Assembly: GCF_030936135.1 (NCBI RefSeq)
Contig: NC_082618.1
Location: 6,731,034-6,795,033 of the forward strand
Origin: Gavia stellata
Lineage: Eukaryota; Chordata; Aves; Gaviiformes; Gaviidae
Direction: 5' to 3'
DNA: 64,000 nucleotides
The position numbers were made by a program, and so were the translations under genes. How positions within the stretch are numbered: the stretch's first letter is position 1; each line of letters starts with the position of its first letter. The notes beneath the pieces were generated by a model, which saw only the letters and a list, made by a program, of their open reading frames with translations, searched no databases and had not been told where the DNA came from. Positions 21,116-46,400 of this stretch are shown here, in pieces.

Positions 21116-21701
21116 CTTGAAAGCTGTCCTGATGGGGAAGCCTCAGGACAACACAGTGGACTTGTCGGGCATCCCGCTGACGCTGAAAGACTTGGACCGC
21201 GTCACGTCCTACCTCCAGCACAGTTCGGAGCACATTGACACGGTGGAGCTGTGCTTCACGGAGCTGACGGATGACATGCTGCTGCAGCTACTGCCGGCAC
21301 TCTGCGTGCTGCCCCACCTCACCACCCTCTCCCTCAACGGCAACTGGCTCACCAAAGCCATCCTACGGGACCTCACCGAAACCCTGAAAGACCCCAAGAA
21401 GTTCCCCAGCGTCACCTGGATCGACCTTGGCAACAACGTGGACATCTTCTCCTTGCCACAACCCTTCTTGGTCAGTCTAAAGAGACGATGCCCAAAGCAA
21501 GGCAATTTGCCAACCATTCTGGAGTTTGGCGAGGGTCAGGTAAGCGATTTGGAGAGCCAAGATGGCCTGGCCGAGAGCCAGGAGGACCTGCGAGCTGGAC
21601 CAGGCAAGACTGACAACATAGGCTTGCAGCAGATGGACAGAACAGTCGAGGCTGGGGAGCTCCCCAACTCGGAGCAAGGTGCTGCGGCACCGCAAACATG
21701 A
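21116..21701 (+). CDS. LRRC75A: LRRC75A, terminal coding exon (leucine-rich repeat-containing protein 75A, C-terminal 194 residues)
   Basis: The exon opens after a strong acceptor with one base completing a split codon (cysteine in mammals), then runs 194 codons to TGA. It is recognised from the motif LKAVL near its start, DNTVDLSGIPLT, DRVTSYLQ, the block TDDMLLQLLPALCVLPHLTT, the repeat core LSLNGNWLT, then VTWIDLGNNVDIFSLPQPFL and PKQGNLPTILEFGEG. These follow the mammalian LRRC75A (FAM211A) C-terminus closely, including a final QT. LxxLxLxxN-type leucine-rich repeats cover roughly exon residues 45 to 115, while the last 50 residues are acidic, low in complexity and poorly conserved. Human LRRC75A is about 344 residues, so some 150 N-terminal residues are encoded by exons outside the window. 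LRRs usually mediate protein binding, and the cellular role of this protein is not established. The paralogue LRRC75B is less likely because the flanking host gene is SNHG29. Confidence 0.95.
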
Positions 21702-39814: not shown

Positions 39815-40519
39815 GGCAAAATGATCAGCAACACCTGCATTAAACCTGTCTCGGTGAACATGCTCAGTTGATCTAGGTTTGATGACACTCTTACATTCCA
39901 CGCCCCCTATAAATATGAAGAGCATTGAAGCATTACAGCCTGCCAGTTATACTGACATAATGAACCTAATTGGAAAGTTTCAGCCTCAGATGCCGTTTTT
40001 CTCATTTAAGCACCTCAAGTCCCCAAGATTCCCCCCAAATCCTTGGACTTCTGTTTATCAACCTCCCTGTAGACCAATCTTAGAACGAGTCATTATCACA
40101 AAAGCAGCCTTTTTTCCTCTTACTAGCAAGATTCAAGAATGCTGACAAGTTGCAGAGTACGAGTCTCTTTTCCCTTTTTCCACATCTAGCAGTTACTTTT
40201 AGATTTGCACATTTGGACCATTATTTAGAAGAGATGCAGAACCTTAGCTAGAATGCTATTGCTGCAGGAACAGATTCTGCTGCCTCTGTAGCAGACTTTA
40301 AGAAAGGCTGAGGCCAAAATAATGATGAAATAGCAAGCCTAAAACAAGCTACAGAAATAGTTGCATTTGCTCTTCTTGCTGTTAGGGGTATTTAAGGCCT
40401 AATCTCTCCAGTAATTACAGCAGCAGCAATAGTATCACACTGTTTCAAGCAAGTAAATTTCCAAATACCAGACAGAATGCTTACACAACCAAAACCCATT
40501 TACATTATCCGCAGTAATT

Positions 40520-40561
40520 ATACTGCAGTGTGTATACATCATACTGCAGTGTGTATACATC
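40520..40561. repeat. Perfect 21-bp tandem duplication
   Basis: The unit beginning ATACTGCAGTG and ending TATACATC is repeated exactly, at 40520-40540 and 40541-40561. It lies just beyond the inferred 3' end of the SNHG29 homologue. Confidence 0.9.
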
Positions 40562-40679
40562 TACTTTATCATATTATAGCAAATTATAGGAGTGCTCAGC
40601 ATGTTTATTAAAAATATGTTGCGTAACGGAAAGTCATTCCTTAATGCAGTGAAGTGACAAAACCAGAGCCAGTTGTTGG

Positions 40680-40855
40680 GGTTTTTTTGAGAGAGAATTT
40701 TAATACATGTATAAGCAAAAGAGTGTAACTGTTACTATTTCTTAACATCGTAGGGCAGAAAAATAGGTAGTCTTTACAAACGCTAGTCCCCAAGCTCACG
40801 CGCATGTTTTATCGGATTCCTTCTTCCTCAGACAAGATGTTTTCAGCATAAACAC
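40680..40855 (-). ncRNA. SNHG29: SNHG29 homologue exon 5 (terminal)
   Basis: The acceptor on the minus strand reads TTGTATTACAG followed by GTGTTTATGC. The exon ends shortly after an ATTAAA signal (40704-40699 on the minus strand). A further AATAAA lies about 100 bases beyond. The acceptor is about 70 bases downstream of the SNORD65 3' end, the spacing typical of efficiently processed vertebrate C/D snoRNAs. Confidence 0.65.
40699..40704 (-). terminator. ATTAAA polyadenylation signal for the SNHG29 homologue
   Basis: A common AATAAA variant on the minus strand, about 150 bases into the terminal exon. An alternative AATAAA lies further downstream near 40,605. Confidence 0.45.
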
Positions 40856-40923
40856 CTGTAATACAACAGCATAAATAAGTTAGCCATTCAACACTAAGTA
40901 TTAACCCATTTGTTAATGTAAAG

Positions 40924-41008
40924 GATATCATCAGAACAACCTTTGCTCACCACCAGTCAATCTGCCGGTAATTCCAGCAATTTTTGGTTAGTTTCATCAT
41001 ATGATATC
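40924..41008 (-). ncRNA. SNORD65: SNORD65 (C/D-box snoRNA, 18S rRNA methylation guide)
   Basis: On the minus strand a perfect C box ATGATGA (41000-40994) and D box CTGA (40934-40931) are closed by a perfect 7-bp terminal stem, GATATCA with TGATATC. The internal guide GCTGGAATTACCG is complementary over 13 nucleotides to the conserved 18S rRNA segment CGGTAATTCCAGC. That is the region where SNORD65 (HBII-135) directs 2'-O-methylation in human, reported at U627. The RNA would assemble with fibrillarin, NOP56, NOP58 and SNU13 in the nucleolus. It lies in the fourth intron of the host gene, about 70 bases upstream of the next acceptor, as expected for splicing-coupled release. The box D' is degenerate. 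The rRNA match is from memory of the vertebrate 18S sequence. Confidence 0.9.
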
Positions 41009-41290
41009 TTGAGGTAAATATATTTCTAGCAGAAGCAAGACCTTTATCCCTTGCTCTACAGTGCTGTCAGCAAAACCAGCGCAGAAGACAGCTGCTCTTA
41101 TACGTTTACTGCCCATATTTTAGTCTCAAAGTATTTTTTGGCCTAGAACTTCATTAATTATACTTTTAGAGCTAAGAATACACAGAAATAGAAACATAGC
41201 CAATGAGAATGTTGTCACTAGGTAATGTTTCTGAGACTGTATCCAAAAAACATCACGTTCAACTAACAGCACACCAAATACTAAACTCAC

Positions 41291-41347
41291 CCAGAAGAAT
41301 TCTCCTGCTCTTGCTGTCTCACTGCCTTCCACAGGACTTGTGAAGAT
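41291..41347 (-). ncRNA. SNHG29: SNHG29 homologue exon 4
   Basis: A 57-base exon on the minus strand, preceded by GATGTTAACAG and followed by the donor GTGAGT. It separates the hairpin-bearing third intron from the SNORD65 intron. The acceptor has a poor pyrimidine tract, so this exon is less certain than its neighbours. Confidence 0.55.
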
Positions 41348-41541
41348 CTGTTAACATCAGTTGGTAGACATTAGTAACAATGAGTACATGGCAGCCGAGA
41401 CCTACAAGCTATACCTAAACATAGTAATACCAGGAAATAAGTATCAGGTTTTAAATTTTGAGGAAGAGAGGAGGGAAAGCAGATTGATTCAAGCTAGGAA
41501 GTACAAACCGACAAAATATGCTTCTCGCATTTCTGGCAGCC

Positions 41542-41577
41542 TATAAAGCTCATTCATTCTCAACTTAGAGCTTTATA
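41542..41577. repeat. Perfect 10-bp inverted repeat in SNHG29 homologue intron 3
   Basis: TATAAAGCTC (41542-41551) and GAGCTTTATA (41568-41577) pair perfectly around a 16-base loop. No C or D box suits it as a third C/D snoRNA. Confidence 0.85.
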
Positions 41578-41618
41578 CCAGGTGGAATCTATGTGGTCCA
41601 GTGAAATTCATCACTTAC

Positions 41619-41695
41619 CTTCACATTAGGGCCATCTCCAAAGAGCGACCTGCTCCCACTCCTATTGTGTCACATTTATCCAGAAAGAGCAGGTT
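41619..41695 (-). ncRNA. SNHG29: SNHG29 homologue exon 3
   Basis: A 77-base exon with acceptor TTTATCTGCAG and donor GTAAGT on the minus strand. It lies immediately downstream of the SNORD49-bearing intron. Confidence 0.68.
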
Positions 41696-41836
41696 CTGCA
41701 GATAAAGTAAAACATATGGATGTGAAGCCATGTTAGGTATTACAAGAGCACTTTTCACAGAAAACATGTATAAATACAAGTCGCCCAAATAGTTCTAGAA
41801 AACAAATTTCTAGAACTCAAACTCTGCATGCATGTA

Positions 41837-41920
41837 GCTGTATTTCAGACAAATAAGAAGGTTATCGTCAGTTCTCGCATCTGACGGCACTTCCTATTCA
41901 GGGTTATCATCATCAACAGC
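41837..41920 (-). ncRNA. SNORD49: SNORD49 (U49 C/D-box snoRNA, 28S rRNA methylation guide)
   Basis: On the minus strand the C box ATGATGA (41913-41907), an internal CTGA and the D box CTGA (41848-41845) are closed by a GCTGT/ACAGC terminal stem. The core 'aataggaagtgccgtcagat' followed by GCGAGAACTGACGA is nearly identical to the human SNORD49A core, which makes the identification firm. U49 guides 2'-O-methylation of 28S rRNA (reported at C4426), and the stretch ATAGGAAG is complementary to CTTCCTAT in that 28S region. It lies in the second intron of the host gene, about 140 bases upstream of the next acceptor. Human carries two copies, 49A and 49B. I found only one here. Confidence 0.94.
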
Positions 41921-42214
41921 CAACAACTTTTGTATTTCATTACTTAAAACACAGTAATTGTTTCATCTTGAACCAACAGTTGTACGTTTTCCCCTTTGTT
42001 TACAAAAGGCATTAGCTCTGTTAGCTTAATGGTACGTAAAATTAGTTTTAATTAGTTCTTAAATAATTAACTTGCTTTAAGGTGTAATTGTTACAGGTTA
42101 TTTTCAACTAACCGTTCTGTATCTAACTGCTTTACATCATTAGCATGTAAGTAAAGGCCTGGAACTTTCTTAACAACTTTGCACACATTAGTACAAAATA
42201 AAACTTTAACTTAC

Positions 42215-42238
42215 TCTTTACTTCAAGACATCTTTCTG
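42215..42238 (-). ncRNA. SNHG29: SNHG29 homologue exon 2 (24-nt microexon)
   Basis: It is preceded by a strong acceptor, CTTTTATTCCCACAG, and followed by GTAAGT on the minus strand. In the frame opened by the ATG of exon 1 it supplies four codons and TGA. A weaker alternative donor GTAAAG lies within the exon. Confidence 0.62.
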
Positions 42239-42929
42239 CTGTGGGAATAAAAGCAAAAGAAGCATTATTACAATACTCTTCAGCATTCATTTTAGAAAAT
42301 TATAAAGGTTTATCCAGGAAAAAACAAACCAAACCCAGAACCTCACTGCCAACAGTCTGCTTGTAATTCCACCCATGTTTGTGTTGGTATCATGAATCAC
42401 TAAAATATTTATATCAGACATCTTTTAGTAGCCAACAATCCTCTCTGAAGTGTTTGCAGTCAGGAAACTGCAATCTCCCTTACACGGCTTGCCAGACTGC
42501 ATTTACCAAAAGGGCAATTTTGAAATTGAAATTCCACCCAACTCCAATTCTCAGGTTGTAAAGTTCATCGCGCAGAAAGGGTCTGGCACATTTAACAACC
42601 AAAGAAGTGACCTGTTTGCTAACAACAGCGCCATAAAAATAAAAATCCATAGAAAGCATACGACTGCCAAGCACTAACCACAGAAGCGTTCCCTCCACAG
42701 CCCCCGCAGAGCTCTGAGCTCGGCAGGGCCCTGTCCCAGCGGTACGTGACGCTGTCAGCAGCAAGGGACCAGCCTGAAAGCAGCCAGGAGGCTCGTGAGG
42801 AGGAAGTACCCCGAAGGGGAACAGGCTTCACCCTCACAGCCTTTCACTGCAGCTCCACGAGCCAGCCACGGGCAGCAGCACCCCGCCTGCAGCTGGGGCA
42901 GCAACCAGCAGCAATACCCGGCGTTACCT

Positions 42930-43480
42930 CACACACACAGCAAGCTCCCGGGCCTCCCAACCCGGCCCGGCCCCTTTTCACTTACCGGGGAGCCGTTTCA
43001 GCAGCCCCAGCGTAGTTCTGGGCCTCCCCGCGGGGTCGCGGCGACCGGGAGCGCCCGGTGCCCGCCGCCATGGCCGGCCTGCGGGGACAAGAGGAGTCAG
43101 GCGCCACATGCTCCGAGGCCACACCCCCTCCCCTGCGCGCGGCACTCGGGCCGCACGTCACGAGCGGCGCGCCCCCCCGCCCCGAATGGTCGGGCCCAGC
43201 CCGAGCGGCCCTGGGGACAGGGAGGCACGGCGGACGCCACCACTGCCGGGAGGTGGGGGCCTTCCTCTCAGCTCCGTGGCGGGAAGGCACCCGCTAAAAG
43301 ACAAGGGCATCTCGCTCCGCAAGCCGGGCCTCCGCCTCCTCCCTGCCCGCCTTACACAAGGCCCCACCGGCCCCAGCCCCGCGCAGGAGGCCCACACGCC
43401 TCACCTCACCCGCCGCTAGGCACGCAGGACGAAAGGGCGGGAAGAGCGGCGGCGGCCGCTTATGAAGGCTTGGGACGTAC
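42930..43480 (-). promoter_or_regulatory. CpG-island promoter of the SNHG29 homologue, with CRE-like site
   Basis: A sharp GC- and CpG-rich island in otherwise AT-rich sequence covers the first exon and about 380 bases upstream. On the minus strand TGACGT (43160-43155), a CREB/ATF-type core, lies about 60 bases upstream of the proposed TOP start. No TATA box was seen. Long plus-strand open frames across the island are a by-product of its base composition. Confidence 0.75.
42986..43096 (-). ncRNA. SNHG29: SNHG29 homologue exon 1, with possible short ORF
   Basis: The exon ends at the donor CCCCG|GTAAGT. The proposed start CTCCTCTTGTCCCC is a pyrimidine-rich 5'TOP-like sequence. An ATG in strong Kozak context (GGCCATGG) at 43071-43069 opens 28 full codons to the donor (first residues MAAGTGRSRSPRPRG), and the frame closes in exon 2 for about 33 residues. 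The stop lies well upstream of the last junctions, so the message would be an NMD substrate, as for other snoRNA host RNAs. A TCCCCGCAG string just upstream of the ATG resembles an acceptor, so an upstream first exon is an alternative. Confidence 0.65.
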
Positions 43481-46400
43481 CACCCCGCGGCGGGGGGGCG
43501 GGCCGTGCCACTGCTCCAGCAAGCCGGGGGTGGGCCGAAGCGTCCGTTTCCTGCCGTGCGGCGCGGGAGGGAGCCGGGCCCTCGGGCTTCTCTCAGCCTC
43601 GCTGGGCCGGCAGGACCCTAATTTTAGGCACATCTCTACTCGTCTGAAAGCAGGAAAGTGGGTTCATTAAACTTGGGCTGGGACAGGCTACACCTCGAAG
43701 CAGGGACCCTCACTTCGCCCCCAGGAAGGCACAAGCCCCGCTGCGGGCAGCCAAGGGAGCACCCCCGGGCCCTTCACCAGCGAGCAGCACTGTCCTTCAC
43801 GGTGTGTGTGCCAGCAACACTGGATAGGTCAGTCTGATTTCAGACCACTTCTATTTGAAATACAACAGCTGTTTAAATAAAAGTTCAATTATTTTCACAT
43901 TATAATGTTATCTTGAACTGAAAATAAGGGGGGTTTTGCTTTCCGTTTTCTCTGTTAAGCACATTGACCATCATATCAAAAAAACCCCTCACTTTCAAGC
44001 CTCACCAACGCCACACGTTCAGAATCTGCCTGAGGACTGCTGCAGGCACAGAGCCCGTAGCCCCCACGACGATTTCTTTTGCACAATGTAACAGGCGCCT
44101 GAACCATTTACCAAAAAAATACCTTTTTAAAACAGCAAAAACTTCCTAGAAGAAAGACCAGGGTGGTCCTGTAACGAGACACCTAAAATTCAGAACTATT
44201 TTTTCCTCTCAGGCATAGATCGTCCAGCAAAAGCCAAAGCCAAACTTCTCCTTCTTGCAAATTTTCAACATAAGTTCATTTTAATAAAATACATAGGTTG
44301 CACATCTCAGTATTAGAACTTTAATTTCTGCATCAAATTCCTTGAAGGTAATAACATCTATGAGTTCAGTGAAAAATCAAGAACGCATCAGCTAAGAGCA
44401 AAACAGCTGACCACAAAGAGAAGGGGACTTCAACAAAATTCTCTATGCAAGCTCTCTCTAGGTCAAATGGATTTAAGTTAACCATGTTGAGGAAAAAGCA
44501 TTCACTAAAGAGTCAGTGCTCATTTTTCATTATCAAAACCCAGCAGTTCATGTTCAGGTAACTAAGGAAGACCAAAGCTAGAATTCCTGACCACCAGCAA
44601 ACACTTTTCAAGGCATCTCTGTACATCATCAAAAATCAAAACCAGGCAAACACTCAATTACCAAAAAACCTCTCTGTAAGTCCCTTCAACAGTAAACCTC
44701 TATTTTGTTGCAGCTAAGCTACCATGGCCTCATTAACACACATAACCCTCCCCCCAAACCATAAACACAACGGACACCAAATAACATGGAGGCATTTGTA
44801 AAGGCATATTTATGGCTACCTGGAAGACAGAACCAGTGTTAAGGACGACTCCTCCTCAAACGCAAGCTTTTGCCTCGCTCTTCTTGATGCCACACATCCA
44901 TTAGTTCAGATCTTTTGTATCAGTTGAAGAGATTCTCTATTCCCATTCTGTCCTTCACCAGGCTCAAGTTATGAATATTTATGAAAAAATTACATAAGTT
45001 TATGAATATTTATGGCAACACAGTGGTTATCAGCAACGTTAACAGTAGAACACAACCAGCTGCTGAGCTTAAAAACATGCAAGGGTTCATAACAATGCAG
45101 AAGCCTGTCTTCATAGACCAGGTGCATGATTCATATCTACCATCTCCTTTCAGGAAAAAGAAAGGTCATAACGGATTCAAAGCAGTAATACAACACAAAG
45201 GTTTACTGGCAAAAAGACACTGGTTAAATAAATTTTATCAGGATCTTGAGAAACGGGTACGGTAGGGGTATGATTCCATCTGAAAGCTTTGGAAGGGATA
45301 TTAATGAAAGCACACGTTAAATGCATTATTACAGTGATCAGACGTTGCAGTCATTTACTCTCAACAGTCCTTTTATGAGACATATTTATATATTCAATAA
45401 TTAAATATAAAATCAAGGATGAGTGTCACAAAACAAGGAAATAATAGGGCTTGAAGCCCAGTCAGTCCCCAGATTACCCTTCTAGTCACTGTACCTTTCA
45501 TTTTTACCTTTAATTTTACATGCTGCTATTCTTACACATCATAAAGCAATACGAAAAGTTAATTGCAGATTCCTTGCTTTTGTGAAGCCTCAAACCTACT
45601 TCAACTCAGTACAAAAATAGGGGGAAAAAAGATAAAACATTGTTTGTTAAAAAGCAGAAAGGGGAAGAGAGATTCATAGACATTTGGGACTGACAGAACC
45701 TAGGAAATAGGAACAATGCAAACAAATTTTCAGACTATCAAAATGTAGCAGACAATGTTTTTGCTACCTGTTCTGTTTACCAGAATGCGATGTGCTAGCA
45801 TTATTCCTTATTTAGAATTATTGGCAATCAAAATAAATGCCATAGGCAACAAGAAGAAAAAATTGCAGTTGCACACGGATCAAACCTTTTTCCTACCTAG
45901 AGAGGGTATGCGGGTAAAAAAAGCTGAATGTAACAAGTCAACCATGTGCACATCCACATGTACTGTACAGTAAGAACATTCAAAAATATTGACATGAGAC
46001 AGCAATCCTATAGTTTTCCTTTTCTCTTTCAGTTATATATACATATATAGTTAAACAGCACATAGGAAAACACCACTATAGCTTTCACCGTGGCCAACAG
46101 GAAAATTCTCACAAATATAAAAGTGTATGTTTTTAAATTGTTAGATTCCTTCAAAACATAATACAGATGAAATGAAAGAAATAGAATTTCTCACCATGTA
46201 ACAAAAAAAAAAAATTAAACCCTCAGGAATTTACACAATTCTCAAACATTCAACTTCGCAGTCTTGAACATCTCAATCCCTGCTACAGCAGAACATAGCA
46301 TCACCAAAATAAATGAGCAGAATTCCTTGAGAGCAGTGATGCTACTCGGATACTATGTGAAATTTCACTGTACTAAAACATGTAACTTAGTTTTACATTC

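Follow-up and report, generated by a model that had tools for sequence, protein, structure and literature searches.

A probable SNHG29 orthologue hosting SNORD49 and SNORD65 in Gavia stellata, with a likely decayed SNORD65 duplicate

What kind of gene occupies the minus strand near 41 to 43 kb in the window (the whole stretch of Gavia stellata DNA that was analysed, 64,000 nucleotides), and where does it begin and end? A preliminary description, which gave outer limits alone (40680..43096), proposed a host gene of small nucleolar RNAs (snoRNAs) equivalent to mammalian SNHG29. The exon chain was rebuilt in this analysis. The locus is very likely the SNHG29 orthologue, which would be a spliced, polyadenylated, non-coding minus-strand host of SNORD49 and SNORD65; a third, SNORD65-like stretch in it is most likely a decayed duplicate.

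The snoRNAs are the firmest part of the locus. Rfam, run over all 64 kb with default settings, gives two matches above gathering and no others:

40929..41002, minus strand, SNORD65 box C/D snoRNA with an 8-bp terminal stem (Rfam RF00571)
41843..41917, minus strand, SNORD49 box C/D snoRNA (Rfam RF00277)

The SNORD65 match reaches 69.6 bits against a gathering value of 41 and spans model positions 1-73 of 73; the SNORD49 match reaches 68.9 bits against 37 and spans positions 1-71 of 71. Both are thus full length and on the minus strand, as expected of the two intact C/D snoRNAs claimed before, and the scan with these two Rfam models that had been proposed as a check places both far above gathering. 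The statement that annotation would leave this locus blank is overstated, since a default scan flags both snoRNAs. When a second SNORD49 copy was sought, Rfam gave none in 3.4 kb even with E-values up to 10 allowed, and apart from the known copy the most SNORD49-like place scores 42.5, which is the noise level. Searches for relatives of the SNORD65 core gave no match in viral contigs and none in genome contigs, as expected for a vertebrate gene.

Each snoRNA carries an antisense element before box D'. In human numbering we take the targets to be 18S U627 for SNORD65 and 28S C4426 for SNORD49, and we assume that the guide called HBII-135 in chicken is SNORD65, an equivalence supported by their common 18S target. 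SNORD65 has 13 contiguous nucleotides complementary to 18S rRNA, and SNORD49 has eight contiguous nucleotides complementary to 28S rRNA. The SNORD49 pairing, extended by hand, covers 12 of 13 positions with one U-U mismatch. By the N+5 rule, the fifth nucleotide before D' is A in SNORD65 and G in SNORD49, which points to U627 and C4426, respectively. In chicken the guides are 13 nt (HBII-135) and 12 nt (U49) long, both before box D', and the target sites are listed as 18S U588 and 28S C3911 (PMC2653536, Table 1). SNORD65 would therefore guide 2'-O-methylation of 18S rRNA at the site numbered U627 in human and U588 in chicken, and SNORD49 that of 28S rRNA at C4426 in human and C3911 in chicken. 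The identity, strand, order and spacing of the two snoRNAs and their guide sequences are established.

The snoRNA pair would be the main product of the gene, released by splicing, debranching and exonuclease trimming. The optimal distance from a snoRNA to the branch site is 40-50 nt, and a terminal stem compensates when the branch site is farther away (literature quoted in PMC10234308). SNORD65 ends about 49 nt from its best branch site. SNORD49 ends 148 coordinates from its own acceptor and about 110 from the branch site; its distance to the acceptor exceeds the optimum and counts against the explanation given here. The terminal stems have energies of -9.0 (SNORD65) and -10.1 (SNORD49), values that are not rare, since -8 is reached by 26.6% and -10 by 11.7% of 1000 random places.

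Splice sites were scored with weight matrices and ranked within 40600-43700. The following exons are proposed from the splice scores and the spliced model, the last also from poly(A) signals:

42986..43078, minus strand, exon with acceptor 43078 (CTGAC branch site, TCTTGTCCCCGCAG) and donor CCG/GTAAGT
42215..42238, minus strand, 24-nt exon with acceptor TTTTATTCCCACAG and donor AGA/GTAAGT
41619..41695, minus strand, exon with donor AAG/GTAAGT, the best of the region
41291..41347, minus strand, exon with a weak acceptor (3.4), donor TGG/GTGAGT and an uncertain 5' boundary
40683..40855, minus strand, last exon with ATTAAA at 40704 and putative cleavage near 40683

In that region the donors 41619, 42986, 41291 and 42215 rank first, second, fifth and seventh among GT sites, and the acceptors 43078, 42238, 41695 and 40855 rank second, fourth, fifth and sixth. 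In this chain the SNORD49 and SNORD65 introns are separated by one snoRNA-free intron. The ranks support a minus-strand exon chain as a reading of the sequence. The earlier proposal of five exons joinable by consensus splice sites holds for the strand and for these high-ranked sites, with two weak points. At 41347, where the penultimate exon begins, the acceptor scores 3.4, its CTAAT branch site being 24 nt upstream; for 42238, the tested range contains no CTRAY branch site. Two poly(A) signals are present, ATTAAA at 40704 and AATAAA at 40609; the host transcript would be polyadenylated and its introns processed into snoRNAs. A short tandem duplication, gatgtatacacactgcagta in two copies, is found just past the proposed 3' end (40521-40560, minus strand).

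The 5' end departs from the preliminary description, which placed a TOP-like start in a CpG-island promoter at 43096. The CpG-rich stretch is indeed there: in six 300-nt windows over 42901-43700, GC content is 0.67-0.77 and CpG observed/expected is 0.79-0.88. Both candidate starts (43096, and 43446 or 43437) fall inside it. Position 43096 does begin a TOP-like CTCCTCTT. This pyrimidine run, however, is the tract of acceptor 43078, which scores 9.9 and whose CTGAC branch site is found 19 nt upstream; over 64 kb, the minus strand has only three acceptors that reach 9.5 and also have a clean CTRAY branch site. The interval 42900-43600 contains 10 TOP-like runs, which makes a single one weak evidence. 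While 43096 has no A/T-rich element 15-40 nt upstream, the TOP-like runs beginning at 43446 and 43437 have TTCATAAG there, roughly where a TATA element would be expected, with donors following at 43410 (9.0) and 43405 (10.2). One further exon can thus be proposed from the sequence:

43410..43437, minus strand, proposed exon 1, starting at C43437 or C43446, with donor 43410 or 43405 and TTCATAAG upstream

Because the run at 43096 belongs to a strong acceptor and the 43446/43437 runs have both a TATA-like element and donors, the gene probably has a short upstream exon outside the reported interval, with 43446/43437 fitting better than 43096. Minus-strand transcription would then begin at a CpG-rich, TOP-type promoter near 43.44 kb, the position suggested by these sequence elements.

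Published intron numbers bear on the choice between the two starts. The chicken transcript CR391615 has GGgCD65 (U49) in intron 2 and GGgCD16 (HBII-135) in intron 4, with one isoform each (2009 survey, PMC2653536, Table 1), and human SNORD49A and SNORD49B are both in the second intron of SNHG29 (PMC9622897). With six exons, SNORD49 would fall in intron 3 instead of intron 2 as in CR391615. The chicken numbers fit five exons, and both species agree with a gene that starts at 43096, in which the acceptor-like sequence at 43078 would be due to chance. A 5'-truncated cDNA, or skipping of the 93-nt exon, would give identical intron numbers and would reconcile the six-exon chain with chicken. Given the strength of that acceptor and its branch site, we regard the five-exon start as rather unlikely, though worth keeping in mind. 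Under the favoured upstream start, exon 42986..43078 may be a cassette exon, and the upstream exon may join 42238 directly; alternatively, the earlier start may be correct and 42986..43078 may be the first exon, as in the earlier model.

Does the spliced transcript encode a protein? In exon 42986-43078 of the spliced model, an ATG in strong context, GGCCATGG, opens a frame of 33 codons. The locus could on this account be a protein-coding gene that hosts snoRNAs incidentally, with this frame as its product. The frame is only 33 codons long and stops in the next model exon (42215-42238), about 140 nt before the last junction, an arrangement expected of a decay target. The conceptual translation of 42982-43293, the sole one reaching into the 33-codon frame, has no Pfam match. 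A protein-coding gene is therefore highly improbable. With its stop there, the host RNA would be a target of decay; in a non-coding host gene, the exons would probably be a by-product that leaves the nucleus, has its 33-codon frame translated and is then removed by nonsense-mediated decay. GAS5 and similar TOP-type host genes have intronic snoRNAs, a pyrimidine start and a short early frame. The present locus resembles them in its intronic snoRNAs and short early frame, and would do so in a pyrimidine start and presumably in decay; the gene and its snoRNAs are different.

The neighbouring genes were located by tblastn with human proteins as queries. NCBP3, found as 12 minus-strand pieces that run from 63397 to 46943, is upstream of the host gene on the same strand. 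LRRC75A is found as one piece (residues 165-325, plus strand, 21117-21602, E 6.5e-70), and the frame of its last exon ends at 21701, which leaves about 19 kb between it and the host gene's end. These pieces place the locus between LRRC75A and NCBP3. The description of the locus as tail to tail with LRRC75A is right in that the genes are on opposite strands and LRRC75A converges on the host gene; its coding part, however, ends about 19 kb off and does not overlap. Pfam at 0.01 flags no flanking-gene fragment in a run of eight proteins, and three flanking proteins run at E up to 1 give two sub-threshold matches with unrelated names. The names NCBP3 and LRRC75A rest on the human query proteins, since Pfam flagged no tested fragment. 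Pfam at 0.01 also has no match for 10 reading frames at 25.5-41.4 kb, a subset of those lying between LRRC75A and the host gene.

SNHG29 is recognised by one gene having both SNORD49 and SNORD65 in its introns and by convergence on LRRC75A. Both features are found here, the second with a human LRRC75A query. The assignment to SNHG29 is strengthened by chicken CR391615, which has the same snoRNA order with one snoRNA-free intron between, and by LRRC75A lying downstream on the opposite strand. The chicken transcript also agrees in guide lengths (12 and 13 nt) and in their location before D'. It differs in having one isoform of each snoRNA in Table 1, hence no second SNORD65 copy, a comparison made by table. 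Human SNHG29 (LRRC75A-AS1) likewise has LRRC75A as a neighbour and hosts SNORD49A, SNORD49B and SNORD65 (PMC13421336); its transcript is polyadenylated (PMC9622897). Human SNHG29 has two SNORD49 copies in one intron, whereas here there is one and a degenerate SNORD65-like stretch precedes it; at the present locus, moreover, about 19 kb separate the gene from the end of the LRRC75A coding part, and the neighbour upstream is NCBP3.

The novelty implied in the preliminary description does not hold, the chicken locus having been in print since 2009 (PMC2653536). Since that counterpart was published with the layout of the five-exon chain, the locus is not new: it is correctly identified but already known, and it matters little for novelty. 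It shows neatly how standard RNA models, combined with a reading of splice sites, recover a non-coding host gene.

Another SNORD65-like stretch, overlooked in the earlier account, is found in the intron preceding the SNORD49 intron (42985-42239):

42312..42398, minus strand, degenerate SNORD65-like stretch, probably a decayed intragenic duplicate (Rfam sub-threshold match, local alignment)

In a permissive Rfam scan it scores 26.7 bits against the SNORD65 model, below gathering (41), with an E-value of 0.21 for the 64-kb window and all families and of 0.011 for 40300-43700 (3.4 kb). The remaining sub-threshold Rfam matches in the window are far below gathering and are taken as chance. Chance resemblance would also account for the low bit score of this stretch and for its E-value over the whole window. 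Against that, its local alignment to SNORD65 scores 60.5, which none of 2000 dinucleotide shuffles reaches (maximum 45.0), and no other place in 64 kb on either strand, SNORD65 itself excepted, scores as high, the next best being at 43.5. It resembles a family hosted by the same gene, is intronic and on the right strand, and ends 74 coordinates before its own acceptor, the same spacing as SNORD65. The highest-ranking direct repeat within 40600-43700 (29 nt, 79%) is the one between this stretch and SNORD65. Mere chance is accordingly improbable, and 42312-42398 is most likely a decayed intragenic duplicate of SNORD65, as judged from these sequence comparisons.

Has this copy lost its function? 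Its boxes are degenerate, with CTGG aligned to box D and TCATGA to box C in place of canonical boxes. No terminal stem is found for it (energy -2.0, no pairs beside the boxes). Of the 18S guide it retains nine contiguous nucleotides, along with the fifth-position A. That the copy is a lineage-specific duplicate still yielding a small RNA despite non-canonical boxes, one that would pair with 18S near U627 or with another target, is quite improbable in our view; decay of the copy is the preferred reading. No second avian SNORD65 copy appears in the literature found or in Table 1 of the 2009 survey (PMC2653536). Intragenic duplication is the main source of chicken snoRNA paralogues according to the same survey (PMC2653536), and should other birds confirm the decayed SNORD65 copy, it would add a further case of intragenic snoRNA duplication and divergence.
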